64,000 nucleotides of DNA from Bradyrhizobium sp. CIAT3101 (GTDB lineage Bacteria; Pseudomonadota; Alphaproteobacteria; Rhizobiales; Xanthobacteraceae): positions 8,639,001-8,703,000 of the forward strand of contig NZ_CP121634.1 of NCBI RefSeq assembly GCF_029714945.1. The letters are read 5' to 3'. Below, piece by piece: positions 3,630-53,393 of this stretch (the stretch's first letter is position 1; each line of letters opens with the position of its first letter). Under the pieces are notes generated by a model. That model saw nothing but the letters and a program-made list of their open reading frames with translations. It ran no database searches and was not told the origin of the DNA. A program made the translations under genes and the position numbers.

Positions 3630-3710
3630 GCGGGTAATCTCCTAAAAACTAACCTGCCGCCTTGAGCGCCGCCGGCCCGGAGGGAATGAAAGACGCCTCC
3701 AGTGGCATCG

Positions 3711-4949: not shown

Positions 4950-4952
4950 CGT

Positions 4953-8502: not shown

Positions 8503-8510
8503 GGGACATT

Positions 8511-9097: not shown

Positions 9098-10062
9098 GGT
9101 TGATCTCCTAATGGTAAAAAGCTGTAGTCGCCGGACGGTCCGAGCCCTGAAACGCGAGCAAGCTCGGCGAGGCGGCGATCGGCTCCGCGGCCAACAAGAA
9201 CGGCAATCACGTTGATCGTTTCGGCAATAAGCGCCCGCGGGACAGTGACCACTGCTTCCTGGATGAGCTGCTCAAGCCGGCGCAGTGCCCCGAGCGCAGT
9301 CCCGGCATGTATGGTTCCGATCCCGCCAGGATGGCCTGTCCCCCAGGCCTTCAGGAGGTCGAGAGCTTCGGCTCCGCGTACCTCCCCGATCGGAATACGA
9401 TCAGGCCGTAGTCGCAGCGAGGCGCGGACAAGATCTGATAGAGAGACCACGCCGTCCCGGGTGCGCAGCGCAACGAGGTTCGGCGCTTTACATTGAAGCT
9501 CTCTGGTATCTTCAATGAGAACCACGCGGTCTGCCGTCTTGGCGACCTCCGCAAGAAGCGCGTTTATCAGGGTGGTTTTCCCGGTGGAGGTCCCGCCCGC
9601 GACCAGGATGTTATGGCGAGAGGCGACGGCAGTTCGAAGAGCGCCGGCCTGCTCCATGGTCATGGTCCCGGCGACGACATAGTCCTCGAGAGAGAATACA
9701 GCCACGGCCGGCTTGCGGATCGCGAATGCGGGGGCGGCAACGACGGGCGGCAGCAGACCTTCAAATCGCTCCCCGGTCTCCGGTAGCTCGGCCGAGACAC
9801 GTGGCGCACCCGCATGAACCTCGGCGCCGACGTGGTGAGCGACCAGCCGTATGATCCGTTCTCCATCTGGAGCGGACAGGCTTTTGCCGGTCTCAGTCAG
9901 GCCACTGGACAGCCGATCGATCCACAACCGACCGTCTGGGTTGAGCATCACCTCGACAACCGTGGGATCTTCCAGAAAGCACGTAATCGCGGGGCCAAGC
10001 GCAGTGCGCAGCATGCGTGCTCCGCGCGAGATCACCTCCGGCTGAAACAATTGGATTGTCAT
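9094..10062 (-). CDS. trbB: TrbB, VirB11-like conjugation ATPase
   Basis: TrbB (322 aa) is the hexameric VirB11-type ATPase at the base of the mating channel. The Walker A loop 'GGTSTGKT' is at residues 156-163, followed by a Walker B-like '[11 protein letters not shown]' and the family's '[19 protein letters not shown]'. It is the first gene of the leftward trb operon. Its ATG stands nine bases after the U-run of a perfect terminator-like hairpin, and no strong ribosome site is visible, so its expression may be attenuated (see the separate entry). Confidence 0.96.
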
Positions 10063-16791: not shown

Positions 16792-17736
16792 ATGTTCAAT
16801 ATGAACGCGAAGGTTATGATCAGATTGGAAACGCATACGCTGCCCCGCCATTTGCGTCGGCTCGAGGCCGAGACGATTGAAATCATGCGGGAAGTTGTCG
16901 CCGAGTTCAAAAACCCGGTGATGCTCTATTCAATTGGTAAAGATTCGAGCGTCATGCTCCACCTGGCGATGAAGGCGTTCTATCCGGCGAAGCTGCCTTT
17001 CCCGTTGATGCATATTGATACGACGTGGAAATTCCGCGAAATGATCGCCTTTCGCGACGAGACGGCAAAACGCATCGGGATCGATCTGATCGTCCACGTG
17101 AACAAGGACGGCATCGCGCGCGGCATCAATCCCATCGATTCCGGCTCCGCGCTGCATACGCAGGTTATGAAGACCGACGCGCTCAAGCAGGCCCTTGACC
17201 TGTACGGATTCGATGCGGCATTCGCCGGCGCGCGGCGGGACGAGGAGAAAAGCCGCGCCAAGGAGCGCATATTTTCGTTCCGCTCGGCAGGACACGTCTG
17301 GGATCCGCGTAACCAACGGCCCGAACTTTGGAACCTGTTCAACACCCGCATTCGTCAAGGCGAAACCATGAGAGTGTTCGCGATGTCGAATTGGACGGAG
17401 CTCGACGTCTGGGAATACATCATGTTCGAGAAGATTCCCGTCGTGCCTCTCTACTTCGCGAGATGGCGACCGGTAGTGCATCGGAACGGTACCTTGATCA
17501 TGGTGGACGACGAGCGGCTCCCGCTCTTGCAGAGCGAGACCCCGCAGATGCGGAGAATCCGCTTTCGTACACTTGGGTGCTACCCCCTGAGCGGCGCCAT
17601 CGAATCGGAGGCGACCACGATCGAGGACATTGTCGCCGAAATGCAGGTTGCGACAGTTTCGGAGCGCCAGGGGCGCCTCATCGACATGGATGAGACAGCT
17701 TCAATGGAGAAGAAGAAGCGAGAAGGATACTTTTGA
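16792..17736 (+). CDS. nodP: NodP, sulfate adenylyltransferase small subunit (CysD-like)
   Basis: NodP (314 aa) is the ATP-sulfurylase subunit that makes adenosine 5'-phosphosulfate from ATP and sulfate, together with the GTPase part of NodQ. The PP-loop 'SIGKDSS' is at residues 47-53 and is followed by '[11 protein letters not shown]' and '[11 protein letters not shown]', which are hallmarks of CysD/NodP. Length is normal. The ATG at 16792 has no clear ribosome site; 16801 is a possible alternative. The stop TGA shares a base with the nodQ ATG. The nod box upstream separates it from housekeeping cysD. Confidence 0.92.
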
Positions 17737-19622
17737 TGGATATGGAAGCCAGCCCTTGCGTCGGCGAGGCTGACAGCAAGGATCAATTGCGCTTCATCAC
17801 CTGTGGCTCGGTCGATGACGGAAAATCAACGTTGATTGGCCGACTCTTGCACGACAGCAAGATGATCTATGAGGACCAGCTGCATGCGCTTGCCCGGGAC
17901 AGCGCCAAGCACGGTACAACGGGCGGCGACATCGACTTTGCCCTGCTGGTCGACGGTCTCGAGGCTGAGCGCCAACAAGGTATTACCATCGACGTCGCCC
18001 ATCGGTTTTTCACCACGTCGCATCGATCATTCGTAGTCGCCGATACACCAGGCCACGAACAATATACACGCAATATGGCGACCGGCGCCTCCAACGCGCA
18101 GCTCGCCATCATCTTGATCGATGCGCGCAAAGGGGTCCTTGCGCAAACCAAGCGCCACTCCTTCATCTGCTCGCTGTTGGGTATCCGGCACGTCGTGCTC
18201 GCCGTGAACAAGATAGATCTCGTTGACTACCGAAAGGACATCTTCGACGGCATCGTGAACGACTATGTTGCCTTTGCTTCGGAGCTCGGCTTTACGTCGA
18301 TCACTCCACTTCCGATCTCCGCCAGGTACGGCGACAACATCACCAAGCGATCCCGCAACACCGATTGGTATCAGGGCCAGTCCCTGCTTGATCACCTCGA
18401 GACTGTCGACATAGAATCCGAGACGACCGATCTACCTTTCCGTTTTCCGGTACAGTGGGTGAACCGGCCAAATCTGGATTTCCGAGGGTATGCGGGCACG
18501 ATCGCCTCCGGAAGCATCTCGGTTGGTGATGAAATAATCGTCGCAGTCTCGGGGCTGAGCTCGCGCGTCAAGCGGATTGTGACCTACGATGGTGATCTTG
18601 CGGTCGCCGGAGCGGGCGAAGCCGTGACGATCACGCTCGAGGATGAGATCGACGTCAGCCGCGGCGATGTCCTGGCGAGCCCGACGCACCGGCCTGAAAT
18701 CGCCCATCAGTTTGCCGCTCATCTGATCTGGATGGACCAGGAGCCAATGGTGCCGGGTCGTTCCTATGCATTCCGGATTGGCACGCAATCGATCACTTCC
18801 GGCAGCATCAGCTGCATCAAATACAAGGTCGACGTCAACACACGCAAGCAGGTCGCGGCGACCACGTTGGGTCTTAATGAGATCGGCTTCTGCAATCTGG
18901 CCACTGTCCTGCCTGCAACGTTCGATCCCTACCGTATCAACCGGCGGACGGGATCGCTCATCGTAATCGACGTCTCTACCAACCGCACTGTTGGCGCGGG
19001 GATGATCGAATTCTCGCGCCGGCGCACGACCAACATCGTCCAGCAACCGCTGTCGATTGGGAAGCAGGAGCGTTCCGCGCTCATGCATCAGAAGCCGTGC
19101 GTCATCTGGTTCACCGGCCTTTCCGGCTCTGGCAAGTCGACGATTGCCAATATCGTCGACCAGAAGCTGTTCGCAATGTCGCATCACTCGATGCTGCTGG
19201 ATGGCGACAACCTGCGTCAGGGGCTCAACCGTGATCTCGAGTTCACCGAGGAAGATCGTTTTGAGAATATTCGCCGTGCTGGCGAGGCGGCACGATTGAT
19301 GCTCGAAGCCGGACTGATCGTCATCTGCTCGTTCATTTCTCCCTACAAGGCTGACCGGAACATGGTGCGCAATCTGGTCGGGAACCGCGAATTCGTCGAG
19401 GTCTTTGTGGACACACCGATAGAAGAATGCATCCGACGCGACCCAAAGGGTCTTTATTCCAAGGCAAAAGGCCAGATCAAGAACTTCACCGGCATCGATG
19501 CGCCGTACGAAGCGCCAAGCACGCCGGAACTCCATTTGAAGGCATCAGGCGAGCGGCCAGAACACTTGGCTGACAAGGTGCTAAATTGCCTCGCCGCACG
19601 AGGATTCATCATCCTGAGGTGA
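17736..19622 (+). CDS. nodQ: NodQ, bifunctional CysN/CysC (GTPase and APS kinase)
   Basis: NodQ (628 aa) fuses the regulatory GTPase of ATP sulfurylase (residues 1 to about 445) to an APS kinase (about 450-628), yielding PAPS, the sulfate donor for sulfotransferases. The GTPase part has 'GSVDDGKST' (24-32), 'DTPGHEQY' and 'NKIDLV'. The kinase part has a second P-loop 'GLSGSGKST' (461-469) and 'SFISPYKADR'. The ATG at 17736 overlaps the nodP stop; a TTG one codon earlier is possible. A purine-rich ribosome site (AGAAGGA) lies in the nodP end. Both halves look active. Confidence 0.95.
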   Translation: MDMEASPCVGEADSKDQLRFITCGSVDDGKSTLIGRLLHDSKMIYEDQLHALARDSAKHGTTGGDIDFALLVDGLEAERQQGITIDVAHRFFTTSHRSFVVADTPGHEQYTRNMATGASNAQLAIILIDARKGVLAQTKRHSFICSLLGIRHVVLAVNKIDLVDYRKDIFDGIVNDYVAFASELGFTSITPLPISARYGDNITKRSRNTDWYQGQSLLDHLETVDIESETTDLPFRFPVQWVNRPNLDFRGYAGTIASGSISVGDEIIVAVSGLSSRVKRIVTYDGDLAVAGAGEAVTITLEDEIDVSRGDVLASPTHRPEIAHQFAAHLIWMDQEPMVPGRSYAFRIGTQSITSGSISCIKYKVDVNTRKQVAATTLGLNEIGFCNLATVLPATFDPYRINRRTGSLIVIDVSTNRTVGAGMIEFSRRRTTNIVQQPLSIGKQERSALMHQKPCVIWFTGLSGSGKSTIANIVDQKLFAMSHHSMLLDGDNLRQGLNRDLEFTEEDRFENIRRAGEAARLMLEAGLIVICSFISPYKADRNMVRNLVGNREFVEVFVDTPIEECIRRDPKGLYSKAKGQIKNFTGIDAPYEAPSTPELHLKASGERPEHLADKVLNCLAARGFIILR

Positions 19623-20527: not shown

Positions 20528-21475
20528 GTGATGATGGTGAGTGACCCGCATGAGGGACGCAAATCGCGCGGCCTCCATCGAGATCTCGTGTTTTGGACAC
20601 CGAGGGCCGTGAAAGTGAACGATTCGACGAACATAGAAGATCCCGATTCGGCGATGCCCAACGGCAGGGTCCTGGAAGTAACGACGACCACGGGCTGCGT
20701 CATCGGATGTTCTTATTGTCCGCAGGACCGGTTTGCCGTTCGGCAACGTGCCGTGTCGCATGCAAAGCATCTTCGTCTTGAAGATTTCAAGAAATGTTTG
20801 GCGCGCGTACCACCAACTGTCGACATCAGCTTCGCCGGCTACTCGGAACCCTGGCTCAATCCAGCTTGCACCGATATGGTTGAGCATGCCTCCGCATCAG
20901 GCCACGGCATCAGGATCTCGACGACGCTTGTAGGCATGAACCGGCGGGATCTAAAACGGCTGCAAGCCCTACATTTCCAGGCTTTCTTAGTCCATGTCGT
21001 CGATGACGGCACTTACATGAACAGCCGTCTCGTCAGAAGCGAGTATGTCGATTTGGTGCGTCAACTTGTCGACGCAGACATTTCCTCGATGCTGTTCATG
21101 GTCGTGGGCGACGTCCATCCTGATCTCGTCGAGATAATCCCCGAGAAAGCGCTCGTTCGCTCCCGCCCCCGGAGCGTCAGGGCTGCAGAAGTTCATCCTG
21201 ACATCGTTGAAGCAGGGCAGCCAATCGCAGGCGCAGTGACATGTGCTGACGAACGATACCATCGCAATCTTCTTCTCCCTAACGGCGACGTTACTCTGTG
21301 CTGCATGGATTTTGAGCGACGCCACGTTTTAGGAAATCTTCTCCGCGACGAATATCAAGATCTCTTCGAAGGTCCAACTTTTTGCGAAATTGCCGAGCGC
21401 ATGGCCGGAAAAAAAGAAGGTTTTCTGCTTTGCCGGATGTGTGAATCTGCCGGATCGAAAGCAGTTAAGTGCTGA
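20528..21475 (+). CDS. radical SAM/SPASM-like enzyme
   Basis: This 315-residue protein has the radical SAM cluster motif CxxxCxxC at C57, C61 and C64 ('GCVIGCSYC') and a cysteine-rich C-terminal part of SPASM or twitch type (cysteines in 'VTCADERY', 'TLCCMDF' and 'LCRMCESAG'). Such enzymes modify peptides, sugars or cyclitols by radical chemistry. No precursor-peptide gene is visible next to it. The start is uncertain: GTG at 20528 is followed by two ATG codons, and no ribosome site is clear. It lies 1.07 kb upstream of the GMC-aminotransferase-sulfotransferase run, in the same orientation. Confidence 0.8.
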   Translation: MMMVSDPHEGRKSRGLHRDLVFWTPRAVKVNDSTNIEDPDSAMPNGRVLEVTTTTGCVIGCSYCPQDRFAVRQRAVSHAKHLRLEDFKKCLARVPPTVDISFAGYSEPWLNPACTDMVEHASASGHGIRISTTLVGMNRRDLKRLQALHFQAFLVHVVDDGTYMNSRLVRSEYVDLVRQLVDADISSMLFMVVGDVHPDLVEIIPEKALVRSRPRSVRAAEVHPDIVEAGQPIAGAVTCADERYHRNLLLPNGDVTLCCMDFERRHVLGNLLRDEYQDLFEGPTFCEIAERMAGKKEGFLLCRMCESAGSKAVKC

Positions 21476-22541
21476 TATGGAGGCATTTGGGCGAACCTGC
21501 GCGAAGCTAGGCGCGGATCATTGGCTGTATCGTGCTGAGCTGGCCCGCAATTCCTTGCCCGGCTCGGCGCATACCAATCACTATGTCGCAGATTCATCAG
21601 GCAATCGACTATTGAATCGGTGATTGCGAAACATCATTGTCCGTAAGACTTCACGTCATTTTGCAGAGTAACGGAAGACGCATCGCTTTGGGATGCTCAG
21701 GGACTTCCACCACGCAGAGCAGACATTCTATGCGAGCGATTTACATTGAAGCTTTCAGTCTCTTGGACGTCCTCCCCCTATTTGAAGGGGCAGTATGCGG
21801 CACGATCCTCACGCGGAGTTAGATCGGCCCTAATCGGAGCCCGGGAGTCGCAAGTTATCGACCTGACCCTGCTCTCACCCAATTGCCAAGGCCACAGCAG
21901 AGCCTGCGTGCTTTGCTCCAACGGCACCGCAGGAGAAGACGACCCATCGCCGCTTCCCGATCTTCGGGCAATAGACCTGAAGTCGGCTCGCCAAAGCCAA
22001 ACAAGGCCAGAAAAGGGCCACTGCAGTGCCGGGACGGCGTCGCAATGCAGCGCCAACGGCCATTCCCATTGCGAGCAGACGCTTCGCACCGGGGCACAGC
22101 TCACTTTTTTGCATGAGCTGGAATCGGGGCCGATCCGAAATCACCCGGCATCCTAGCCTCGTGGTAAGCGCGTCGCAGTCATCCGCGCTTGCGAGGTGTT
22201 GCCCTGCACCACTGTTTTGAGCTTCCATTCGATGAGAATGAGATGAGGGGTCGAAACGTCGCTGGAACAGACGGCGCTCATCAGCACACCACGCGCCAAG
22301 TGCTTCCGAGATACTGGTCTCTCAACGTTCATCCGGTCGCCCGCTTCAGAGGATCTTGAACATATTCATGCGATCGCGCGCAAAGGGCTTGAATCGTACG
22401 GAACGTCATATTGTACGAGTCGCAAGGTAGGTCGCGACGTCTGAGTCATGGTGGGTGGCAGTTTTCAAAGCCGTCTCGACCTATCCAAATGATGGACATC
22501 GTCGTGATGAATGGCTGATGTGCTTTGTCGTAGGTGGGACA
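21476..22541. other. no gene recognised; possible promoter region of the biosynthetic run
   Basis: No convincing gene lies in this kilobase. A small inverted repeat (CCCC-N8-GGGG, about 21775-21792) is present. Near 22482-22500 there is a weak dyad (ATCCA and TGGAC) that recalls, but does not match, a nod box. The promoter of the downstream genes probably lies in the right half. Confidence 0.4.
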
Positions 22542-24056
22542 ATGACGTCCAACGCCGTTGATGTGTGCGTAGTCGGCAGTGGTGCCAGTGGCTCGATAGT
22601 TGCCCACGAGTTGGCCCGAAATGGATTCCAGGTGCTCGTCCTTGAAGCAGGCCAGGAGCTTCCTGCGGGCGCTTCATTGAAGAGTGTCCAACGTGGTTTT
22701 GGTAACGCCCTGGTGCGCTCTCCGTCCGGGACATTGACCCCGCGAGGCCGTCCCTGGACGGTATCGGCACTGGGCGGCGGCATGACGCTGTACGCTGGCA
22801 TCGCGTTCCGGTGTCGCACCGTCGACTTCGATGCACGAGCCCATGTTGCCGCGGACGCACTCGATCCCGTCTGGCCTTTCGATTACGGGGAACTGCGCCC
22901 CTATTACGAGGAGCTTGAGCGGCGGATAGGGATTGCCCGATTGGCGGGCGCTGATCCACTCGAGCCGCCCAGCGATCCCGGCCTGCTGCCGCCGCACGAA
23001 TATAGCCTGCAGGGCACTCTGATGGCCAATGCGGGAGGACGCCTAGGCTGGTTGCCGTTCCCGACACCGCTCGCGATCAACTCGGTCCCCTACCGCGGTC
23101 AGGCGGCCTGTGACCGGTGTGGCCCGTGCAACGAACACCTCTGTCCGAGCGGCGCGCGCGCCGATGCGCGCTCGCCATTCACGGATCAGTCGCTGCCGCG
23201 CGGCGCCCTGACGGTTGCCTCAGGTAGCAAGGCTGTGCATATCGAGCTTGGCAGCGTCAGCCATGTCTCCTCAGTGGAGTGGCTTGACACTGTCATCCAA
23301 CAACGCGCTCGGGTCCGCGCCCGATGCGTAGTGCTCGCTGGCAACGCGATTCAATCTGCCGCCTTGCTGCTAAGATCTGCGCAGCCCACAGCACCCCGCG
23401 GTATCGGCAACTCCACGGGCATGGTCGGCCGCGGCATCTGCTTCAAAATCAGCGGCTACGTGTCTGGCACCATCATGGCGGATCGCTTGCCGTCGCATCC
23501 GCCCGGTGGTCCGTTCTCGACCGTTGCGATGACCGATCACTACCTCGACGCGGACGCACCATCCGGCTTAGGCGGACTTCTATATGAAGCCAGTCCGGCG
23601 GAGCGCGCGGTCAGCGGCCGGAAACTTAAGTTAAGGGTGCATTTCCTTGCGGCCGATCAGCCCATGCGCAGCAACGCCGTTCGATTGTCGAACAGGCGCG
23701 ATCGATTGGGTCTGCAGAAGATCGTTCTCGAATACAGGACTCATCCACTGGATAAGAGCCGATTGGACTATTTGTCGCGTCGCGCCTCGGACTTGCTGAC
23801 TGAGGCGGGCGCGAAAAAGATTAGTTACACGGCTTCCAACTATCAATTCGGTAGTGGTCATCTGCATGGCGGCTGTCGAGCAGGGACTGATCCAAAGGAA
23901 TCCGTGGTCGACCGGTGGGGTCGCGTGCACGATATCGACAATCTTTATGTCGCGGACGGTGGATTCTTCCCGTACCCCGGCGGCGTCAACCCCACCTTCA
24001 CCATTCAGGCAAACGCGCTGCGGATCGCTCGCAGAATCGTCACGCAGCTTGCCTGA
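22542..24056 (+). CDS. GMC-family FAD-dependent oxidoreductase
   Basis: This 504-residue flavoprotein probably oxidises an alcohol to an aldehyde or ketone. The FAD-binding 'VVGSGASGSIVAHELA' (G12, G14, G17) and 'VLVLEAG' are at the N-terminus. The GMC C-terminal block 'HLHGGCRAGTDP', then 'LYVADGGFFPYPGGVNPTFT', supplies the active-site region. A cysteine-rich insert 'ACDRCGPCNEHLCPSGA' near residue 190 resembles that of sugar and gluconate dehydrogenases. The ATG at 22542 opens directly on the FAD fold; the longer frame from 22455 adds an unrelated leader. Six bases separate it from the longest frame of the next gene. Confidence 0.88.
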   Translation: MTSNAVDVCVVGSGASGSIVAHELARNGFQVLVLEAGQELPAGASLKSVQRGFGNALVRSPSGTLTPRGRPWTVSALGGGMTLYAGIAFRCRTVDFDARAHVAADALDPVWPFDYGELRPYYEELERRIGIARLAGADPLEPPSDPGLLPPHEYSLQGTLMANAGGRLGWLPFPTPLAINSVPYRGQAACDRCGPCNEHLCPSGARADARSPFTDQSLPRGALTVASGSKAVHIELGSVSHVSSVEWLDTVIQQRARVRARCVVLAGNAIQSAALLLRSAQPTAPRGIGNSTGMVGRGICFKISGYVSGTIMADRLPSHPPGGPFSTVAMTDHYLDADAPSGLGGLLYEASPAERAVSGRKLKLRVHFLAADQPMRSNAVRLSNRRDRLGLQKIVLEYRTHPLDKSRLDYLSRRASDLLTEAGAKKISYTASNYQFGSGHLHGGCRAGTDPKESVVDRWGRVHDIDNLYVADGGFFPYPGGVNPTFTIQANALRIARRIVTQLA

Positions 24057-24080
24057 CAGGCCGTGACCGGAGGATTGTTG

Positions 24081-25391
24081 ATGTTCAATAGCACCCTCAA
24101 TGCCACATTGCCCGCGACGGAGACCCACAAATCCGCACTATGCCGGGCGTTGCGGGTCACTGCATCGGAAAAATGGGACCTCAATCGGCGTTTTCCCATC
24201 GTGATGAGCCGTGCCTGTGGTGCGTATGTCTGGGATGTTGAGGGAAGACAATACGTCGATCTCACCTCCTGTAGCGGGGCTGCGCCGCTCGGAGCCGGAT
24301 ATGAACCGGTCCTCGATCACGTGGCCTTAGAAATGCGCCGGACCGGCGGCATCGTGCCCGGGCCATTGTCGGAGCACCGGGTCGAGCTGGCCGAACGGCT
24401 CGCCAAGGTATTTCCGCTTGCGCAACGCTCGATATTTTTCCGCACCGGCTCCTGCGCCACGACCGCCGCGGTCCGCTTGGCTCGCGCATACACCGATGTG
24501 AACCTGGTGCTGACCAGCGGATACCACGGCTGGCACGACTGGCACTTGCAGGACCGTCCCACGATGGGCCTACCTGATCGGGACCGCGACAGTGTCGATT
24601 TCCAATATGACCTGGAGCTGCTTGAGAGGTTTGCCCGCGCGCGGCGTCTCGCCGCGGTGATCGTCACACCCGAAGTCAACTTCTTCCCACCCGAATATCA
24701 CCGGGAATTGCAGAATATGGTGCACCGCTACGGTGCCCTGCTCATCCTCGACGAAGTGATGACGGGGTTCCGCTACGGCCCCGGCGGCTATCATACCGCG
24801 ATCGGGCTTGCGCCCGACCTGATCACATTCAGCAAGGGGCTTGCCAATGGCATGGCACTATCGGCAGTGGCTGGCCGCGCCGACGTGCTCAACGCAGCCG
24901 AAAAGACGTACCTCGGCAACACCTATCAGCGCGAGATCACGCCATTCGCGGCCGCGCTGAGCACTATGGACGCGCTGCGCGATGGCACCGCGCTCGCCCG
25001 GATGCGCCGTGTTGGCGAGCAACTCATCAGCGGCCTTAATGAAGTGTTCGCGAGCCAAGAGGTTCAAGCGCGCGCGTTCGCATGGCCAACCATGTTCGAT
25101 GTCGTGTTTGCCAACCCTGACCTTGGTCACGCCTTCTTTCAGGAGATGTGGTCGCGCGGCTTCCTCATGCAGTACGGGGGCCGGTTCATGCCGTCCGCGG
25201 CGTTATCCGATGCCGACGTGCGGGCCGCGATCGAAGCCGTCGGTCACGCCCTGCTGGCCGCCAAAGGGCGCACGGAGAGCACAGGCGGCGATCCGGATCC
25301 GATCGCCGCCGCGGTGCGGTTTGCGGGTGATCACTTCGTTGCTACGCCGGATACCGTCCGGCGTTGGTTCAACGCGTCGAGCCGCCCATGA
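24081..25391 (+). CDS. class III PLP-dependent aminotransferase
   Basis: This 436-residue protein resembles glutamate-1-semialdehyde aminomutases and aminotransferases. The PLP lysine is in 'LITFSKGLANG' (K252) and the cofactor aspartate in 'LILDEVMTGFR' (D224). The 'FFRTGSCATTAAVRLAR' and 'GYHGWHDW' blocks are typical. The ATG at 24081 has GGAGG seven bases upstream and is preferred to the start at 24063. A dehydrogenase just upstream would supply a carbonyl group for transamination. The stop overlaps the sulfotransferase start (ATGA), so the genes are coupled. It is not expected to be the housekeeping hemL. Confidence 0.9.
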   Translation: MFNSTLNATLPATETHKSALCRALRVTASEKWDLNRRFPIVMSRACGAYVWDVEGRQYVDLTSCSGAAPLGAGYEPVLDHVALEMRRTGGIVPGPLSEHRVELAERLAKVFPLAQRSIFFRTGSCATTAAVRLARAYTDVNLVLTSGYHGWHDWHLQDRPTMGLPDRDRDSVDFQYDLELLERFARARRLAAVIVTPEVNFFPPEYHRELQNMVHRYGALLILDEVMTGFRYGPGGYHTAIGLAPDLITFSKGLANGMALSAVAGRADVLNAAEKTYLGNTYQREITPFAAALSTMDALRDGTALARMRRVGEQLISGLNEVFASQEVQARAFAWPTMFDVVFANPDLGHAFFQEMWSRGFLMQYGGRFMPSAALSDADVRAAIEAVGHALLAAKGRTESTGGDPDPIAAAVRFAGDHFVATPDTVRRWFNASSRP

Positions 25392-26362
25392 ACGCCAGCA
25401 GTCGAACGGGGGACACTCCTATGGCCGCGGCCGACGGGTTCTCTACCTCGCCAGTTCTGCTCGGCGGCGAAAACCGATCCGGTACCACATTGCTGAGCGT
25501 CGTTTTGGATTCTCATGCCGATCTGGTGGTGGGACCGGAGATCGACTTCCTGGAACCGTTGAACCTCGGCTCGCACATTCTGGAAGCGACCGATCTTCTC
25601 CACGCTAATGATCCCCGAGTCACGGGCGAGACCAAAAGCTTGATCGATCCGTTCTGGTATGATGGCGCGCACTTCGTCGTGCAATGCCAGCGGTTCGGCC
25701 TGTCCTTCGAGGACGTGCGCAAGCTCGTCACCAAGGTGATGGATGAGACAGCCGGGGACATCGTTTCATTCGCCGACAGATGCAGGCTGATTAATGAGAT
25801 CGGTGAGTTCCGAAGGGGACAAGCAGCGGCAAGGCGCTGGGGACTGAAGCTGCAACGCAAGATCACCCAAATCGACGTCTTCGCGCAGTTGTGGCCGCAT
25901 GCGCATTTCGTCCACATTGTACGGGACGGGCGCGACCTTGCCGCCTCGCATTTGAAAACGGTACCGGACTGGGGTTACCAGACCGTGGCAGACGCTGCGC
26001 AAGGATGGCTTGAAGTCGTATCGCGGCCTCATCTCCTCGCGCCACCGGAGCGTTATCTTGAGGTGCGCTATGAGGATCTGGTCACTCACCCCCGCCCCAG
26101 CCTTAAGCAGATTTTGGATCACCTGCAGCTCCCCTGGGATGAAGCCGTTCTACGGCACGCCGAACACGAGCACGCACTGTTCGAGCGTCCGAACGGCCAC
26201 CCGGCAGCGGAGTCCGCGAGCAAACCGCTGCACGGGGGCCGCCTTGGTCGCTTCAGGCAGGATCTGACGCTCACGGAAGTCGCGGAATTCGAGCGGATCG
26301 CCGGCGGCGAATTGGCGCGGTTGGGCTATCTATCGGCCTCGACCCCGGCGATCGAGGCATGA
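25388..26362 (+). CDS. PAPS-dependent sulfotransferase
   Basis: This 324-residue enzyme has the 5'-phosphosulfate-binding loop 'GGENRSGTTLL' (residues 26-36) and the 3'-phosphate-binding segment 'FVHIVRDGRDLAASHLK', the two hallmarks of sulfotransferases. It probably transfers sulfate from PAPS to a hydroxyl or amine of a small molecule. It is coupled by ATGA overlaps to the aminotransferase before it and the MFS exporter after it. PAPS would come from nodPQ, 6 kb upstream. It does not look like NodH at the N-terminus, so I infer that the substrate is not necessarily the Nod factor. Confidence 0.9.
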   Translation: MNASSRTGDTPMAAADGFSTSPVLLGGENRSGTTLLSVVLDSHADLVVGPEIDFLEPLNLGSHILEATDLLHANDPRVTGETKSLIDPFWYDGAHFVVQCQRFGLSFEDVRKLVTKVMDETAGDIVSFADRCRLINEIGEFRRGQAAARRWGLKLQRKITQIDVFAQLWPHAHFVHIVRDGRDLAASHLKTVPDWGYQTVADAAQGWLEVVSRPHLLAPPERYLEVRYEDLVTHPRPSLKQILDHLQLPWDEAVLRHAEHEHALFERPNGHPAAESASKPLHGGRLGRFRQDLTLTEVAEFERIAGGELARLGYLSASTPAIEA

Positions 26363-27606
26363 ATCCCACCGATATCTCTACCCCGCCTCGCGGATTGCCG
26401 CGCGGATACTTAGCGCTGCTCGTTGGACGTACGGTGTCGGAATTAGGATCCGAAGTGACCGTTATGGCGCTGCCGCTGACGGCGATCACCCTACTGGGAG
26501 CGGGTCCTGCGCAGACGGGGTTGCTGCTCGCCTGCGGTCGGGCGCCTTACCTCATCATTGGCCTGCTTGCCGGGGTGATCGTGGATCGCCTCCCACACCG
26601 ATGCATTCTTTTGACCGCCAATTTAGTGATGGCAGTAACGCTCGCAATGATACCGCTGCTCGCCAGCCTTGGCCAGCTTGGAATGGTCCAACTGTATATG
26701 GCAACCACGCTTGTCGGAACGGCTGCGGTGATCGGCGAGGTCGCCTATCTGGCGTGCGTGCCAACGGTCGTGGATCGTGCTCGACTCGTCAGAGCGCAGA
26801 GTTCTTGGCAACTCAGCAGATCTTGCGTGGTGACCGTCGGTCCTTTCCTGGCAGGCTGGCTGGTCAGCGCGTTCTCTGCGCCGACCGCAATTCTAGTCGA
26901 CTCGGCCTCCTTCGTAGTGGCCGCCGTCTTGCTGCCGCTGCTGCCGGCACGCGCGGCCGAACGGTCCGCAACTGGATCGAGCTCGGTCGTCGGCCAGATC
27001 GCGGAAGGACTGACGGCTGTATTTGGCAACCCGATCCTTCGGGCGGTTACGTTGGCGACTGGCAGCTTCATCTTCTGCTACAACGCCTACTCTGCGGTTT
27101 TTCTGCTTTACCTAACCCAACATATTGGTTTGGACGGCTGGACGACGGGCTTGGTTCTCAGCATCGGCGCGATGGGTGGCATCCTGGGCGCAGTCACCGC
27201 AGCCTGGGCCGGCCGTGCCATTGGCCTTGGGCCGGTCTTGATGGCCACCTTGGCGCTTAGCGCCGCAGGCATGACCCTATCTGCGCTGTTCACAGAGCCG
27301 CGATCGGTGGCACTCGTTTGCGTGGCCCTGTCCCAGTTCGTGCTGTCGTTTGGTCAAGAGATCTACAACGTGCATCAAGTCTCCGTTCGATACGCGCTAG
27401 CTCCGCCTCGGGTGCTGGGCCGCGTCAACGCGAGCATTCGGAGCTTGGTGTGGGGACTTGCGCCGATGGGCGCGCTACTTGGCGGTGCGGTCGGCGCCGG
27501 ACCTGGACTGCGCACTGCGCTATTGGCCAGCAGCTTGCTCGGCGTCGCCTCCGTGCTGTGGCTCTGGCTATCGCCCCTGCGCCGCACTCACAGCTTGCAT
27601 CTGTGA
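26359..27606 (+). CDS. MFS exporter (EntS/MFS_3 type)
   Basis: This 415-residue protein has about twelve hydrophobic segments and the MFS_3-like start 'LALLVGRTVSELGSEVTVMA', found in exporters of siderophores and antibiotics. 'GVIVDRLPHRCILL' is the helix 2-3 motif. It overlaps the sulfotransferase by four bases and is the last gene of the run, as expected for export of the pathway's product. The substrate is inferred only from context. Confidence 0.88.
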   Translation: MNPTDISTPPRGLPRGYLALLVGRTVSELGSEVTVMALPLTAITLLGAGPAQTGLLLACGRAPYLIIGLLAGVIVDRLPHRCILLTANLVMAVTLAMIPLLASLGQLGMVQLYMATTLVGTAAVIGEVAYLACVPTVVDRARLVRAQSSWQLSRSCVVTVGPFLAGWLVSAFSAPTAILVDSASFVVAAVLLPLLPARAAERSATGSSSVVGQIAEGLTAVFGNPILRAVTLATGSFIFCYNAYSAVFLLYLTQHIGLDGWTTGLVLSIGAMGGILGAVTAAWAGRAIGLGPVLMATLALSAAGMTLSALFTEPRSVALVCVALSQFVLSFGQEIYNVHQVSVRYALAPPRVLGRVNASIRSLVWGLAPMGALLGGAVGAGPGLRTALLASSLLGVASVLWLWLSPLRRTHSLHL

Positions 27607-27746
27607 TGCCAGGGATTGAGCGGCGACTGCGTGTGAAGTCAACGCGCTCGGGGCCTCGAGCTACGGGCATACTCCCGAGAATGTTGGATTGTCGGCGGAA
27701 CTGACCTGGTCCCAATCCACCATAGGAGTTGGCCAATAAAGGCGAG

Positions 27747-29069: not shown

Positions 29070-31076
29070 TCAGAGATCGAGACCGTCACCGGGATCCATT
29101 GCGGCTTGACGCGCAAGACTAGAAGCATGTTTGCGAAGAATGCCGGCGCGCTGGACCTCATCGTCACCTTCCTCATCGGCAAAATCGAACTCTGCCCTTT
29201 CCGTGCTGCGGTCCACCTCCACCTCTTCGTGCTGGCCGAGCTCCGGTTCGCGCCTAATGCCGCCATTAGCAGGATCACTGCTGGACGTCGTGGGCTGGTT
29301 GTCAGCGGACCGCTCCTGTTTGGCCGGCGGGGCGACAGGCAAAGGCAGCTTGCTCCAATCGTCGTGAGGAGATTTCATGCCATCTTCACTGTTACCGGGC
29401 CGAGCTGGAGGGAGTACCCGTTCACGCAGTCGGGGATCTTCGTAATAGCGCGCCTTCTTGGCTCGGATCGGCGGACAGCCCGAGACCAATACGAGTTCAT
29501 CGTCCGACGGCAACTGCATGACCTCACCGGGTGTTAGAAGGGGTCGCGCCGTTTCTTGCCTGGACACCATCAGGTGCCCCAGCCAGGGGCTTAACCTGTG
29601 ACCAGCATAATTTTTCATGGCGCGCAGTTCGGTTGCCATTCCGAGGGCCTCTGAGACCCGTCTTGCGGTTCGCTCGTCGTTCGTTGCGAATGCGACGCGG
29701 ACATGGCAGTTATCGAGAATGGAATTATTTGGGCCGTACGCCTTTTCGACCTGATTTAGGGATTGGGCGATTAAGAAGCTCTTCAGGCCATACCCCGCCA
29801 TGAACGCTAGCGCCGATTCGAAGAAGTCGAGCCGGCCCAAAGCAGGGAACTCGTCAAGCATCAGCAGCACGCGATGCCGGCGCGCCTCCGCGTGGAGATC
29901 TTCCGTGAGCCGCCGTCCGATCTGGTTGAGAATCAACCGCACAAGCGGCTTGGTTCGGCTGATATCCGAGGGCGGCACGACGAGATAGAGCGTTGTCGGT
30001 CGCTTCGCCTCCACGAGATCGCGAATACGCCAATCACTGCAGCGCGTGACCCGCGCCACCACGGGATCGCGGTACAGCCCGAGGAAAGACATGGCCGTCG
30101 AAAGCACTCCGGAGCGCTCATTTTCGCTCTTGTTCAGGAGCTCGCGCGCTGCGGACGCAATAACGGGATGCGGACCGGCATCGCCGAGGTGCGGCGTTGT
30201 CATCATCGCGCGCAGCGTCGCCTCGATGGGACGCTTGGGGTCCGAAAGGAAGTTGGCGACGCCCGCCAAGGTCTTGTCCGGCTCGGCGTAAAGCACGTGC
30301 AGGATGCCGCCGACCAGCAGCGAGTGGCTTGTCTTTTCCCAGTGACTGCGTCGTTCGAGTGCTCCTTCCGGGTCCACCAGGACGTCCGCGATGTTCTGGA
30401 CATCTCGAACCTCCCATTCTCCCCGACGGACCTCAAGCAGTGGGTTGTAAGCCGCAGAGTTTCGGTTCGTCGGGTCGAATAGCAGCACGCGTCCATGCGC
30501 AGAGCGAAAACCGGACGTCAGGGTCCAGTTCTCGCCCTTGATGTCGTGGACAACGCAACTACCCGGCCAAGTCAGGAGGGTGGGAACGACCAGGCCAACG
30601 CCCTTACCCGACCGCGTCGGCGCAAAGCAGAGTACGTGCTCGGGCCCATTGTGCCTGAGATACTTGTGATCAGACCGCCCGAGTATGACGCCATCCGGCC
30701 CAGTAAGCTGCGCTGATCGAAGTTCGGTAGCAAGCGCCCAGCGCGCAGAGCCGTAGGTTGCGGCGGTCTTCGCCTCTTGGGCTCGCCAGACCGACATGCC
30801 AAATGCAACTATGATCGAAATGAAGCCGCCCGATGCCGCGATGCAGGCTCCCTCAATAAATATTGTGGGCGCATAGGCATCGTAGGCGTACCACCACCAG
30901 AAAAACGCCGGCGGCAGGTAGACGGGCTTCCCACGCCCGAGCTCAAACCAGGGGTGCCCGAGCTGGGCCTGGAATCCGAGTTTCCAAGCAACCCACTCCG
31001 TCGCCGCCCAGGTGGTCATGAGCACGATGGCAAGGACAAGCGTGATTTGGCCCCAAAGGACCTTCGTCGAAGACAT
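29070..31076 (-). CDS. traG: TraG/VirD4 coupling protein
   Basis: TraG (668 aa) is the type IV coupling ATPase that delivers the relaxase-DNA complex to the channel. Two N-terminal membrane segments (about 8-25 and 72-96) are followed by Walker A 'APTRSGKGV' (152-160), 'VHDIKGENW' and Walker B 'VLLMLDEFPALG'. The C-terminal 110 residues are polar and acidic, as in many VirD4-type proteins. The gene is complete and is followed by the CopG-like gene. Confidence 0.96.
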   Translation of the reverse strand: MSSTKVLWGQITLVLAIVLMTTWAATEWVAWKLGFQAQLGHPWFELGRGKPVYLPPAFFWWWYAYDAYAPTIFIEGACIAASGGFISIIVAFGMSVWRAQEAKTAATYGSARWALATELRSAQLTGPDGVILGRSDHKYLRHNGPEHVLCFAPTRSGKGVGLVVPTLLTWPGSCVVHDIKGENWTLTSGFRSAHGRVLLFDPTNRNSAAYNPLLEVRRGEWEVRDVQNIADVLVDPEGALERRSHWEKTSHSLLVGGILHVLYAEPDKTLAGVANFLSDPKRPIEATLRAMMTTPHLGDAGPHPVIASAARELLNKSENERSGVLSTAMSFLGLYRDPVVARVTRCSDWRIRDLVEAKRPTTLYLVVPPSDISRTKPLVRLILNQIGRRLTEDLHAEARRHRVLLMLDEFPALGRLDFFESALAFMAGYGLKSFLIAQSLNQVEKAYGPNNSILDNCHVRVAFATNDERTARRVSEALGMATELRAMKNYAGHRLSPWLGHLMVSRQETARPLLTPGEVMQLPSDDELVLVSGCPPIRAKKARYYEDPRLRERVLPPARPGNSEDGMKSPHDDWSKLPLPVAPPAKQERSADNQPTTSSSDPANGGIRREPELGQHEEVEVDRSTERAEFDFADEEGDDEVQRAGILRKHASSLARQAAMDPGDGLDL

Positions 31077-33774: not shown

Positions 33775-35526
33775 CTATATTCCCAATCCTCGCTTACGGC
33801 CGACATTCCAATCGACTCTGCCGCCAGGCATCACAATGCCAGATACCTGCTTTCCGAGATGCTGTTCCAAAGCCGGCCGCCAAGGCACCAGCTCAAAACC
33901 GAGCCCATCGTCGATCATAGCGAAACGCCCGGAGGCAAGCGTTACGCGCTGACGGTAGATGCCGGTCACTTGATCGCCCTCAGTTACGGGCTGATAGATA
34001 AGTCCTGAGTCGGTAGAAAGCTTTGCAGTAGCGGCTTGCAGCTCGCGCTGCTGCAAGGCAGCGAGCAAGTCGCGCGCAAACACAATGCGCCGTCCGGACC
34101 GCTGCACAAGGCCTTGGCCAGCGAGGTGATCGAGGCGCGCATCCATTGCGGACCGGACCTCGGCCCCGAAGCCGCCCCCGCTGAGCGACGGATTTTTGGC
34201 GAGAAGCTGGCGGTCGAGCCAGGTCGCACCGTTCGCGCTCACCTGCTCCTCGATCGAGAGGTCTGAGCGAACCGCGAGCGACATTCGCGGCTTTCCACTC
34301 GCATCAGTATAGGTGCGCAACTCGACGATAGCGCCGGCCGGCGCATCGCCAGTAAATTCGAGGTCGCCGAACCGCAGATGATGGGTTCGACCATCGAGGC
34401 CCGCGACGATCGCATAAGCGGTCCCCTTCAGCTCATCATCCAGACCACGTTGAACCAGGCGGCCAAGGACCGGATCGGTGGGTTCTTCTCCGTGCAGGGC
34501 AAAGGTGGCGATGTCCGGCTCCCGCCCCCCAGCACTCATCGCCCGATGCATGGTCTTGATGATGTCGCCGCGCATGCCGAGCTGACGAAGGGTCTGCTCC
34601 AGCCCTGGTTTTAAGGTCCAGCAGGCGGGACCTGTGGATTCGGCAAGGCCGAGGCGTTCAAGCTTGGCCGCCCTGCCGAGCAGCAGGGGGCGCAGTTCAG
34701 GATCCTCACCCTTCCCTTCCGGCCTGAGGTCCGCCACACCGGCGCAGTCATCACAGATCTCACGCAGCGCTCGGTCAAGGCTGGTCCAGCGCTCAGCCTC
34801 GACCTCCCGTTCGAGGCCGGTGCGAACCTCCTGTTCGCTCCGGGGTCCAAGCTCAAGGGTGATGCGGTGGGCGGCACGATCGCGCAAACCGCGGCTGATG
34901 TACTCGCGGCTGATCACAAGATCCTGTCCGTCATCGGCACGGCCGCGAATTAACAGATGGACATGCGGGTTGTCCGTATTCCAGTGATCGACTGCAATCC
35001 AGTCGAGCTTGGTCGCGAGATCTTTTTCGACATCGCGCAGAAGCTCGCGCGTAAATGCCTTCAGGTCACCAAGCGCCGCGCCGTCCTCAGGCGAGATAAT
35101 GAACCGGAAATGGTGACGGTCACTCTCGCAGCGCTCGGCAAAACCCCGCTCGTCGGCTGCGTCAGAGGTGGCGTCAAACATCAAGGCGTTCCGGCCATCC
35201 CGCGTAACGCCCTCACGCTTAAGATAAGCGACATGCTTAGATAGCGGCGCAGAGCGGAATCGCGCTCCCCGATGGCGCACCACACGCGCCTTTGTGACCA
35301 CGCGCCGGGCATTCGAGCGCAAGCGGATCGCGATTGCCGCACGCCGGCCCCGGCCGAAGCGGGAGCGGCTGCGGTCCGGGCCTGAGCGGAAGCTGTTGCC
35401 AACGTGCCCCGCTCTCTTAGCGGCACGCATGACCTGCCCGACGAATGTCTGTGGCCGCCTTGCAACACGGTTACCGTGGTCAATGCGCCCGGGCCTGACG
35501 CGTATGTCATCGTCCCGCATTGTCAT
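33775..35526 (-). CDS. rlxS: RlxS-like relaxase (MobP/VirD2 type, DUF3363)
   Basis: This relaxase (583 aa) would nick at oriT and lead the strand into the recipient. An arginine-rich N-terminus precedes the catalytic core, where the metal-binding histidines appear as H181 and the pair 'HVH' (188-190) in 'DNPHVHLLIRG'. The long C-terminal part is the DUF3363 region usual for this rhizobial relaxase. The ATG at 35526 ('MTMRDDD') was chosen, since upstream codons are low-quality and overlap the transglycosylase. In ICEMlSymR7A the equivalent gene is rlxS, in the same neighbourhood as traF and rdfS. Confidence 0.88.
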   Translation of the reverse strand: MTMRDDDIRVRPGRIDHGNRVARRPQTFVGQVMRAAKRAGHVGNSFRSGPDRSRSRFGRGRRAAIAIRLRSNARRVVTKARVVRHRGARFRSAPLSKHVAYLKREGVTRDGRNALMFDATSDAADERGFAERCESDRHHFRFIISPEDGAALGDLKAFTRELLRDVEKDLATKLDWIAVDHWNTDNPHVHLLIRGRADDGQDLVISREYISRGLRDRAAHRITLELGPRSEQEVRTGLEREVEAERWTSLDRALREICDDCAGVADLRPEGKGEDPELRPLLLGRAAKLERLGLAESTGPACWTLKPGLEQTLRQLGMRGDIIKTMHRAMSAGGREPDIATFALHGEEPTDPVLGRLVQRGLDDELKGTAYAIVAGLDGRTHHLRFGDLEFTGDAPAGAIVELRTYTDASGKPRMSLAVRSDLSIEEQVSANGATWLDRQLLAKNPSLSGGGFGAEVRSAMDARLDHLAGQGLVQRSGRRIVFARDLLAALQQRELQAATAKLSTDSGLIYQPVTEGDQVTGIYRQRVTLASGRFAMIDDGLGFELVPWRPALEQHLGKQVSGIVMPGGRVDWNVGRKRGLGI

Positions 35527-35773
35527 GGCGCAAAAGAGCCTCGTGCGGCTGAGAGATGGCGCAGTCGAGGTTGATTTCGTTCGGGTAATTTGCAGAAGCG
35601 ATGGCAGGAGCAGTTGCGCTGACAGCAAATTGCCCAATCCATCCAACCACCAACGGTCGGACCGACGGCCGGCCTTTTCCCTTGCCATCCGCGGTCGGCT
35701 AGTCCCTGCAAGTTCCCTAGCGCCCTCCAACTCACGACAAACTTCGACAACGCGCGACGAAATGCGATTGCGA

Positions 35774-36502
35774 TCATCGGGACTCCGTTTGCGCCGATCG
35801 CTCCACAAAAAGCTGGGCCGCGCCTGGTACGAGCGCGAGCCCGCCACTGTTCGGGAATTCTTTCGGACTGTTCATTGGACGCCGAGCGGGTGTCGATCTG
35901 GCATGAGCCGACGAGCCAGAGCGGTCAAAGAATAATGCTGCCTGCCGCCACGGAACGGCACTTGGGATCGCCAAAGTCGTGGGCTCGGGCTGTTTGATGC
36001 CGATCAACTCTACGAGCCTGGCAACGTAGATTTTTGTCTCGTCAGGCAGTGGCCGCCCCGTTGCCAGATAGGCCTCGTAGCGCTTTGGACCCGCGTTGTA
36101 AGCTGCGAGAAAACCCTGCGATCCAAACCGGTCGAGCATCTCGCGAAGGTAGGCCGTGCCTGCGAGAATGTTGTCGTGGGGGTCAAAGGGGTCGACACCG
36201 AGATTGTAGCGAGTACTTAGCTCGACCCAAGTCTGGGGCATGATTTGCATCAGGCCCAAGGCGCCCCGGGAGGAAATGGCGCCCACATTGCCGCCGCTCT
36301 CGACTTGCAACACAGCCCGAATCCAGTGTTCTGGGACCGCAAATCGGCGAGAGGCTTCAGTCAAGGATGCAGTGTATAAGTCCGCATGTGGAGAGCTCGG
36401 CGAGTGCAGGCTGACAGCCGGTATTACCGTCTCAGCCGAAGTGTACGACGGCAATTGGAGAACCAGCACAGCTCCAATCAGGCGGGCCGCCATTGCATAC
36501 AT
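35774..36502 (-). CDS. lytic transglycosylase (SLT domain)
   Basis: This 242-residue periplasmic enzyme of the VirB1 type cleaves peptidoglycan to make room for the conjugation channel. A signal peptide is followed by the SLT domain, with the catalytic glutamate E68 in 'VLQVESGGNVGAISSRGA', then 'GLMQIMPQTW' and 'LAAYNAGPKRYE'. The ATG at 36502 was chosen for the signal peptide; ATG 36493 is equally possible. The C-terminal tail (about 175-242) is proline- and serine-rich. It lies between traF and rlxS, the gene order of ICEMlSym-type elements. Confidence 0.88.
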   Translation of the reverse strand: MYAMAARLIGAVLVLQLPSYTSAETVIPAVSLHSPSSPHADLYTASLTEASRRFAVPEHWIRAVLQVESGGNVGAISSRGALGLMQIMPQTWVELSTRYNLGVDPFDPHDNILAGTAYLREMLDRFGSQGFLAAYNAGPKRYEAYLATGRPLPDETKIYVARLVELIGIKQPEPTTLAIPSAVPWRQAALFFDRSGSSAHARSTPARRPMNSPKEFPNSGGLALVPGAAQLFVERSAQTESR

Positions 36503-36681
36503 TATAGCGCAGGTGCTTGCGCTCGAGCTCACTGTGGGTAGCTGGTTCCGCCGCTGAATGTGAGGCGATCGCCGACACGCGCTGGGCATGATTGTCTTTA
36601 GAAATCTCGCCGTGATGAAGCAGGAGGACTGCGATCTATCGACCTGCGAAACTGCGTATCGACGAACCCGGCCGAGCAAGA

Positions 36682-37188
36682 TCAGTCCCTCTCTGTCCAC
36701 ACGGGCAGGGCTTCTCCGATGACGGCGGATGCCGGAAGTGGCCCGAAGTACCGCCCATCGAGCGAACCGGCCGACTGCCGGTTCATGAGAAAGACTTCAT
36801 CCGGCGCTATGAGGCGGCATCCGCGCCAGACCGGCAGCGGCCGGCCACGTGTGTCGCGTTCCCGCGCCAGCCCCATCTCAATGTTATCGACGGAAAGGGC
36901 GAAGCCATTTCTGCAAACGGTTTGTCCGGGCAACGCCAGGACGCGCTTGAGCATGGGAACACCGGTCGGCAGATAGCCGTTCAAGTCCAGGAAGCTCGAA
37001 AGTGGTTCGGGCGGCCGAACGGCCACAAGCTCAGCGACAGTCAATCCTTGCGTTGGCTGTAGACGATAGAGGCCAATCGGGACGCTCTCAGAAGCGTTCC
37101 AGATGTAGCATGGCACGGCTTCTGTGCCGGACCTTGATGCGAGAGCTACCGATCCGCAGATCGCCAGAATAATCGTCAGCCGGCCCAT
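36682..37188 (-). CDS. traF: TraF, S26 signal-peptidase-like pilin processing protease
   Basis: TraF (168 aa) belongs to the S26 peptidases that mature and cyclise TrbC-type pilins. After an N-terminal membrane segment come the serine box 'NASESVPIGLY' (catalytic S35) and the lysine box 'PMLKRVLALPGQ' (K81). The ATG at 37188 overlaps the stop of the DUF2840 gene (ATGA). The substrate TrbC is encoded in the trb operon in this window. The longer frame upstream lies inside the DUF2840 gene. Confidence 0.92.
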   Translation of the reverse strand: MGRLTIILAICGSVALASRSGTEAVPCYIWNASESVPIGLYRLQPTQGLTVAELVAVRPPEPLSSFLDLNGYLPTGVPMLKRVLALPGQTVCRNGFALSVDNIEMGLARERDTRGRPLPVWRGCRLIAPDEVFLMNRQSAGSLDGRYFGPLPASAVIGEALPVWTERD

Positions 37189-37652
37189 CAGAGCCCTCGC
37201 TTTCGACGGCGGAGCCACGCCTGATGGCGCGCCTGAGTGTAGGCCCGCGGGTTTTCGCTGACAGAGAGACGGTTGTGAACATGATGCCAGTAATCCGGCG
37301 CAGCATCTGCAGGATTGATGCCAAGTGCCTCCACCGCGTCGACCAATTGCAGCGCGCGCTCGACTTTCGTCCATCCGGACAATCGCAGCAGGCTCTCTCC
37401 GCCGGGCATGACCCAGGGGATAGTTGAATATCGCTGCCGTGATGACGCGGCGCGTAAAATGTCGATGCGGGACAGAACTGTTCCAAACTCATTAGATGTC
37501 CAACGCACGAAAGCGAAAATGCTACCGCTCTCGAACGAAAGAACGCGGCGGTGACGGTCAATGATCTTTTCAGATACCGGCCGGCCGAAGCGAATGCGAT
37601 TCTCGATCCGTCCCTTCACCCACAAGAGTTCAACGGTTGTGAGCTCGCTCAT
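37188..37652 (-). CDS. DUF2840 protein
   Basis: This 154-residue protein of unknown function belongs to the conserved rdfS-to-rlxS operon of symbiosis elements. It opens 'MSELTTVELLWVKGRIENR' and has a central 'FAFVRWTSNEFGT' block characteristic of DUF2840. The ATG at 37652 overlaps the stop of the RepA-like gene by four bases, and its own stop overlaps traF, so the set is translationally coupled. No catalytic motif is visible. Confidence 0.85.
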   Translation of the reverse strand: MSELTTVELLWVKGRIENRIRFGRPVSEKIIDRHRRVLSFESGSIFAFVRWTSNEFGTVLSRIDILRAASSRQRYSTIPWVMPGGESLLRLSGWTKVERALQLVDAVEALGINPADAAPDYWHHVHNRLSVSENPRAYTQARHQAWLRRRKRGL

Positions 37653-53230: not shown

Positions 53231-53332
53231 AGGCTTCTCCATGGTTGAGGCGATGGTCGCGGGCCCGCCGCTTTAACTCCCATTTTCGAGCAGATTACGT
53301 TGGCAATAGTGATCGGACAATCGGACAGAGTT

Positions 53333-53345: not shown

Positions 53346-53393
53346 TACTCTTTCGATAGGGTGGTGTGATTTCGCGACGAGGGACTTAAGGCG

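Follow-up and report, generated by a model that had tools for sequence, protein, structure and literature searches.

A four-gene operon of nodA-carrying Bradyrhizobium predicted to make and export a sulfated amino-trehalose

A compact operon encoding a GMC flavoprotein oxidoreductase, a class III pyridoxal phosphate (PLP)-dependent aminotransferase, a sulfotransferase and a major facilitator superfamily (MFS) transporter was analyzed in a 64,000-nucleotide stretch of Bradyrhizobium sp. CIAT3101 (hereafter the window; bases 8639001-8703000 of the 9.37-Mb single-contig genome), and it appears moderately probable that this operon makes and exports a sulfated amino-trehalose. In the proposed pathway, trehalose would be supplied by OtsA and OtsB encoded elsewhere on the chromosome, the GMC flavoprotein would oxidize one of its hydroxyl groups, perhaps that at C6, to a carbonyl, the aminotransferase would convert this carbonyl to an amine, the sulfotransferase would add sulfate from 3'-phosphoadenosine 5'-phosphosulfate (PAPS) to the resulting amino-trehalose, and the MFS transporter would export the product. 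In many relatives of the cluster, a PapA2-like acyltransferase would also acylate the molecule, giving a sulfolipid-like amphiphile. Each catalytic step is predicted from the family of its enzyme, and the order of the steps is likewise provisional. GMC enzymes oxidize alcohols, and since the usual substrates of class III aminotransferases are terminal aldehydes, C6 is suggested as the position.

The four genes occupy positions 22542-27606 of the + strand in tandem, all in open frames (Table 1), and both the reading frames and the Pfam matches agree with the families and the single orientation given in the initial annotation. The ATGA overlaps that it described among the last three genes are also present, one common to the stop of the aminotransferase gene and the start of the sulfotransferase gene (25388-25391) and the other to the stop of the sulfotransferase gene and the MFS start (26359-26362). 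The GMC and aminotransferase genes are 24 bases apart, with a GGAGG ahead of the ATG at 24081, and the GMC start codon (ATG at 22542) is conserved in an alignment of 28 relatives. The GMC protein has the motifs GSGASG, HLHGG and NPTFT, which we take to be FAD and active-site motifs; the column of the PLP lysine in the aminotransferase is K in all 62 aligned rows, and all 57 aligned sulfotransferase rows contain the motifs RSGTT and RDGRD. The ratio of nonsynonymous to synonymous substitution rates (dN/dS) was 0.12-0.20 for all four genes in 24 comparisons with six relatives, and 0.06-0.39 in 4 comparisons with the near-identical locus L025, where changes are few. Because the order GMC-aminotransferase-sulfotransferase-MFS is kept in 28 of 28 other Bradyrhizobium loci and dN/dS against the six relatives is this low, the operon is more than a chance arrangement. 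Judged by their sequences, the four genes are real, intact and under selection.

The best solved match of the aminotransferase was an enzyme named C-6' aminotransferase (PDB entries 7lld and 7lm0, 236 bits; glutamate-1-semialdehyde enzymes reached 110), which in the case of 7lld we presume to belong to the gentamicin pathway; no paper for that entry was found in a literature search. The sulfotransferase matched only PF13469 and PF00685 in Pfam, and its nearest solved relatives are protein-tyrosine sulfotransferases. The MFS protein is 52% identical to the product of the MFS gene in a Cupriavidus taiwanensis cluster. Its assignment to the MFS family in the initial annotation stands, the label EntS-like being loose, since it scored 72.4 bits against the EntS model (cut-off 324) and 167.6 bits against TIGR00900 (cut-off 319.6).

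The case for trehalose comes from the neighbors of related clusters. Related sulfotransferases (57-67% identity) were found in seven annotated plasmid records, five of Sinorhizobium and two of Cupriavidus, of which six record a legume as host or source and the seventh records neither. Scanning a genome collection with an alignment of five sulfotransferase rows turned up 42 loci, of which 14 are in Bradyrhizobium; this is a lower bound, as the scan used two short peptide patterns and will have missed relatives. The non-Bradyrhizobium loci include Ensifer/Sinorhizobium, Mesorhizobium alhagi, Paraburkholderia atlantica, Cupriavidus, two Pseudomonas, Lonsdalea, Pectobacterium betavasculorum, two Streptomyces, actinobacterium OK074 and Actinoallomurus, and 34 such loci were mapped (28 from the scan and 6 plasmid loci), some from near-identical strains and not independent. 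A HAD phosphatase and a TreT_GT1-type glycosyltransferase follow the aminotransferase in 12 of the 34, and the TreT-type protein of S. fredii had the trehalose synthase TreT as its best solved match (E 2e-40). OtsA together with OtsB occurs in five further loci, namely Pectobacterium and four Lonsdalea (OtsA in two pieces in L104), and one Cupriavidus necator locus retains remnants of the HAD/TreT pair. Neither TreT nor OtsA/OtsB was seen in 16 loci, among them four second sulfotransferase-MFS-acyltransferase parts of Lonsdalea clusters and three contigs shorter than 7 kb. As two different trehalose routes stand beside the same tailoring genes, trehalose as substrate is the simplest explanation; the initial annotation had left the sugar open, and the relatives thus narrow it. 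The CIAT3101 genome gave no TreT match and has one OtsA with an OtsB match beside it, elsewhere on the chromosome, so trehalose can be made. From the neighbors in relatives we infer that trehalose would also be the substrate of the version in the window.

Three Lonsdalea contigs (L092/L105, L104/L108 and L106/L111) hold two sulfotransferase genes each, in separate parts, one arranged OtsB-OtsA-GMC-aminotransferase-sulfotransferase with two further glycosyltransferases and the other sulfotransferase-MFS-acyltransferase; the Lonsdalea product is possibly a doubly sulfated, longer saccharide.

The acyltransferase-like gene, encoding a condensation-fold protein (hereafter C), stands whole after the MFS gene in 15 of the 28 Bradyrhizobium loci; another 2 have it in pieces, and in the remaining 11 it was not seen. 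For the C protein of Bradyrhizobium locus L034, the best solved match was the trehalose-2-sulfate acyltransferase PapA2 (115.5 bits), followed by a peptide-synthetase C domain with 48.6 bits, and PapA2 was also the best match of the S. fredii C protein (90.7 bits versus 27.9 for the next). PapA2 is described as having a condensation fold with catalytic His166 (PMC6996325). Counted along the alignment, the counterpart of this residue in the S. fredii protein is His148. The DHxxxD motif is present in all 40 aligned C rows. The window itself lacks the gene: it matches L026 on both flanks of the site, with 86 bases between the matching blocks compared with 1762 in L026. A search of the CIAT3101 genome with the C protein of L034, made without a positive control, found no match, and the 17 condensation-domain matches of this genome all lie in open frames of at least 1389 amino acids. 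Since the gene is missing, the product of the window's operon should be unacylated. Some of these condensation domains lie in a 7661-amino-acid open frame, a very large peptide synthetase at 8841330-8861513 of the chromosome (G000:C1), in which several domain matches score identically, suggesting duplicated modules.

The initial annotation had compared the operon with aminoglycoside biosynthesis, and two known systems are informative here. In neomycin/gentamicin-type 6' dehydrogenation and transamination, a GMC flavoprotein works with a class III aminotransferase; the operon has the same two families side by side, its aminotransferase has a C-6' aminotransferase as nearest solved relative, and its GMC protein keeps PF05199 and the three motifs given above. 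Unlike that system, the operon adds a sulfotransferase, and no aminocyclitol (2-deoxystreptamine) gene was found among 28 Pfam-scanned proteins, a subset of the window's open reading frames. Of the secreted sulfated amino sugar or cyclitol proposed at first, the amino sugar agrees with these findings. In Mycobacterium tuberculosis, sulfolipid-1 is assembled by Stf0, PapA2, PapA1, Pks2 and MmpL8. The relatives are similar in having a sulfotransferase next to a PapA2-like protein and, in 17 of the 34 non-Bradyrhizobium loci, trehalose-forming genes beside the cluster. They differ in that the operon's sulfotransferase belongs to PF13469 and not to the Stf0 family PF09037, and in the addition of the GMC and aminotransferase genes; the window also has no acyltransferase. 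No PF09037 match was found in the CIAT3101 genome, though control genomes were also silent. The operon thus resembles a cross of neomycin-type amination and tubercular sulfolipid assembly and is a member of neither, because for each of them defining features that were tested fail.

An avrD-linked, HrpL-regulated operon of P. savastanoi pv. phaseolicola 1448A (PSPPH_A0112-A0106), in which deletion of PSPPH_A0107 is reported to reduce growth on bean (PMC3879358), likewise joins a sulfotransferase, an aminotransferase and an oxidoreductase. It was rejected as a relative, since neither the sulfotransferase (best E 0.03) nor the oxidoreductase gave a significant match, the latter being annotated as a 2OG-Fe(II) oxygenase and so of another family; the aminotransferases are 23-27% identical. 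A full-text literature search, whose reach leaves out most subscription journals and preprints, found no paper on the present cluster, and the main text of a 2024 P. betavasculorum genome paper does not contain the word sulfotransferase (PMC10991766).

Table 1. Features of the window discussed in the text (positions count from its first base)
Feature	Position	Strand	Basis
GMC flavoprotein oxidoreductase, predicted to oxidize a sugar alcohol	22542-24056	+	PF05199 84.9 bits, PF00732 31.4 (Pfam)
Class III PLP aminotransferase, predicted to aminate the oxidized sugar	24081-25391	+	PF00202 146.4 bits
Sulfotransferase, predicted PAPS-dependent	25388-26362	+	PF13469 95.0 bits
MFS transporter, predicted exporter	26359-27606	+	PF07690 90.6 bits
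Site of the missing PapA2-like C gene of relatives (L026, L027, L033)	27607-27746		Alignment with L026
30-bp conserved element, inverted repeat TCGTAC-N13-GTACGA, about 120 bases before the GMC start	22389-22418	+	Alignment of relatives
CysD/NodP-like sulfate adenylyltransferase small subunit, possible PAPS supply	16792-17736	+	NF009214 534 bits, cut-off 413
CysN-CysC/NodQ-like large subunit with APS kinase, possible PAPS supply	17733-19622	+	NF004035 978.8 bits, cut-off 715
Radical SAM/SPASM protein, start uncertain	20528-21475	+	PF13186, PF04055
NoeE nodulation sulfotransferase	40422-41627	+	707.6 bits, cut-off 500

The distribution of the cluster within Bradyrhizobium was followed in a separate set of 265 genomes (of the 14 Bradyrhizobium loci from the collection scan, only L109 was mapped), with counts that ignore kinship. 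A close aminotransferase (at least 76% identity, the next best being 37%) is present in 29 of these genomes, CIAT3101 included, and is partial or in pieces in three (G257, G163 and G109). All 29 have a strong NodA match, compared with 139 of the 265 overall (hypergeometric P 1.6e-9, kinship again ignored). The distance between cluster and nodA is 62-67 kb in G038, G239, G253, G256 and G259, about 266 kb in CIAT3101 and megabases in G194. The aminotransferase of G198, listed as the same species as CIAT3101, is 82% identical to that of the window while that of G251 is 99% identical, in line with a cluster that travels together with the symbiosis island. The window also carries conjugation-related genes, all on the - strand (773-10062, 29070-31076 and 33775-37374): these spans hold the Trb-type genes TrbI, G, F, L, J, E and B, a TraG-like protein (by reading) and matches to an RlxS-like relaxase and a TraF-like peptidase, consistent with a mobile symbiosis island.

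The conserved element upstream of the GMC gene was recognized by eye in 20 of the 28 relatives and is diverged in L029 and L030. Its pattern, with up to 2 mismatches, occurs in 121 of the 265 genomes, every one of which belongs to the 139 that have a strong NodA match, and a reversed-pattern control gave 0 genomes. Other copies in CIAT3101 are at G000:C1:8369650 and 8356031, and some copies precede hemN-like, acetyl-CoA-carboxylase-like, AMP-ligase, secretin, radical SAM/SPASM and transposase genes. The element was rejected as a tts box, as it differs from GTCAGCTTCTCGAAAGCTAAA and GTCAGCTCGTCGAAAGCTAAA, the boxes before the window's NEL-type effector genes, which we assume to be tts boxes. 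Those genes encode two LRR/NEL-domain proteins of E3 ligase type (55373-57100 and 58188-60659, both -), and each is preceded by a GTCAGCT..TCGAAAGCTAAA box (57166 and 60733) of a kind presumably typical of type III effectors.

With regard to the role of the product rather than its chemistry, it could act as an antibiotic on competing bacteria instead of signaling to the host, a reading that we regard as somewhat unlikely. The genes are carried by Streptomyces-like strains and soft-rot relatives, the cluster is patchily distributed within Bradyrhizobium (29 of 265 genomes), and a trehalosamine with antibacterial activity has been reported (PMC6960277). Within Bradyrhizobium, however, the cluster is confined to nodA genomes, and the element before it in most relatives is likewise found only in such genomes, which would better suit a role in association with plants.

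A different substrate is also conceivable, and somewhat less probable still: the Bradyrhizobium and actinobacterial version might use another sugar, a glycoside or a cyclitol in place of trehalose, sharing only the sulfotransferase, the exporter and the acyltransferase with the trehalose version. Two Streptomyces loci and OK074 have GMC-aminotransferase-sulfotransferase-MFS-C in the Bradyrhizobium order, plus a second C gene in the opposite direction, and are 60-63% (GMC) and 66-67% (aminotransferase) identical to the window; no C gene was seen at the Actinoallomurus locus. Between the two versions, the GMC proteins and aminotransferases are about 39-40% identical and the sulfotransferases 64%. 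In trees of selected rows (39 aminotransferases, 31 sulfotransferases and 29 GMC proteins), Streptomyces groups with Bradyrhizobium for GMC (98/97) and with the Sinorhizobium group for the sulfotransferase (100/99), which argues for a mosaic descent of these two genes.

Several observations weigh against an amino-trehalose product. The GMC proteins and aminotransferases of the two versions may act on different positions or sugars, and the nearest solved relatives of the GMC protein are fructose and glucose dehydrogenases, not C6 enzymes as in the neomycin-type system. In the aminotransferase tree, the fork setting C-6' aminotransferases and cluster enzymes apart from the other rows is weakly supported (86/62), with long branches. 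Likeness to PapA2 does not prove the same acceptor. TreT, OtsA and OtsB were not found in the actinobacterial loci, and no trehalose synthase gene lies within the Bradyrhizobium clusters, the nearest being an OtsA match about 6 kb upstream of the GMC gene in G198 and about 7 kb upstream in G197 (L027 17659-19026; L130 7321-8679), neither with an OtsB match beside it. A dedicated second OtsA was considered and rejected: at least two OtsA matches are present in 21 of 29 cluster genomes versus 57 of 110 other nodA genomes (P 0.059, not significant). A search for MFS matches found none in 11 of 12 Sinorhizobium/Ensifer/Mesorhizobium loci and none in the twelfth (L070) either, so the exporter is not a fixed part of these clusters. 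Downstream of the S. fredii GR64 and S. americanum CCGM7 clusters, the annotation lists an RND adaptor paired with a permease. In favor of trehalose, the Bradyrhizobium C protein itself has PapA2 as its best solved match, and CIAT3101 has OtsA and OtsB, so that a dedicated synthase is not needed.

It seems improbable that the CIAT3101 operon is a relic in decay. The C gene is missing in the window, and at least one core gene is in pieces or contains a stop in six of the 28 relatives (L035, L048, L049, L050, L051 and L052), but the four genes of the window are open, with low dN/dS and conserved catalytic motifs, and some of the 11 relatives in which C was not seen have all four genes whole. The initial annotation had proposed a search for the four-gene neighborhood across rhizobia and would have counted a lack of co-occurrence against its reading; the genes do co-occur in other genomes, in rhizobia and also beyond them, the window's copy lacking the acyltransferase of many relatives.

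The window offers a possible sulfate supply, a CysD-CysNC pair 3-6 kb upstream of the operon. It may be the supplier of the operon's sulfotransferase, a link that is weak because, among the 28 Bradyrhizobium relatives, only L025 has the pair nearby and because NoeE, encoded in the same window, is an equally good client. Elsewhere, two Pseudomonas clusters carry a gene for adenosine 5'-phosphosulfate (APS) kinase that directly borders TreT or overlaps it, and one C. taiwanensis cluster has an APS kinase-like gene next to the aminotransferase. Although the setting, with NodPQ-like genes and NoeE in a rhizobial symbiosis region, and the reported dedication of S. meliloti nodPQ to Nod-factor sulfation alone (PMC4053727) recall such machinery, it is extremely unlikely that the operon serves Nod factor or surface polysaccharide, as its sulfotransferase scores 20.6 bits against the NCBIfam NoeE cut-off of 500 and was rejected as a Nod-factor enzyme, NoeE is a separate gene, the pair is so rarely shared, and relatives occur in Streptomyces, Lonsdalea and Pectobacterium.

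Among the remaining genes of the window, the radical SAM/SPASM protein has a relative near the cluster in six of the 28 Bradyrhizobium loci, that of L025 being split in two, and also in S. terangae L022; it has no solved relative at E 0.1. A Peptidase C58 protein is encoded at 43882-44652 (-, 137 bits), a family that includes rhizobial type III effectors, and a Rieske/VanA-type oxygenase, a 2Fe-2S reductase and a divergent LysR regulator at 51114-54359 form an aromatic demethylase-like set.

If the operon does make a sulfated amino-trehalose, it would belong to an unrecognized family of secreted sulfated amino sugars common to nodule symbionts, plant pathogens and actinobacteria, combining aminoglycoside chemistry with tubercular sulfolipid chemistry. 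The trehalose-6-phosphate/SnRK1 switch takes part in plant sugar signaling, and it is conceivable, at rather long odds, that the exported molecule mimics trehalose-6-phosphate or blocks plant trehalase. Were this true, nodule bacteria and plant pathogens would steer host sugar signaling during colonization, and the acylated form would be a plant-side counterpart of tubercular sulfolipid-1. The operon would then offer a target of just four genes, a product class with a predicted mass of about 421 Da (amino-trehalose sulfate, C12H23NO13S) and enzymes open to simple assays, and would make testable the idea that rhizobia may speak to legumes via trehalose-like molecules besides Nod factors and secreted effectors.

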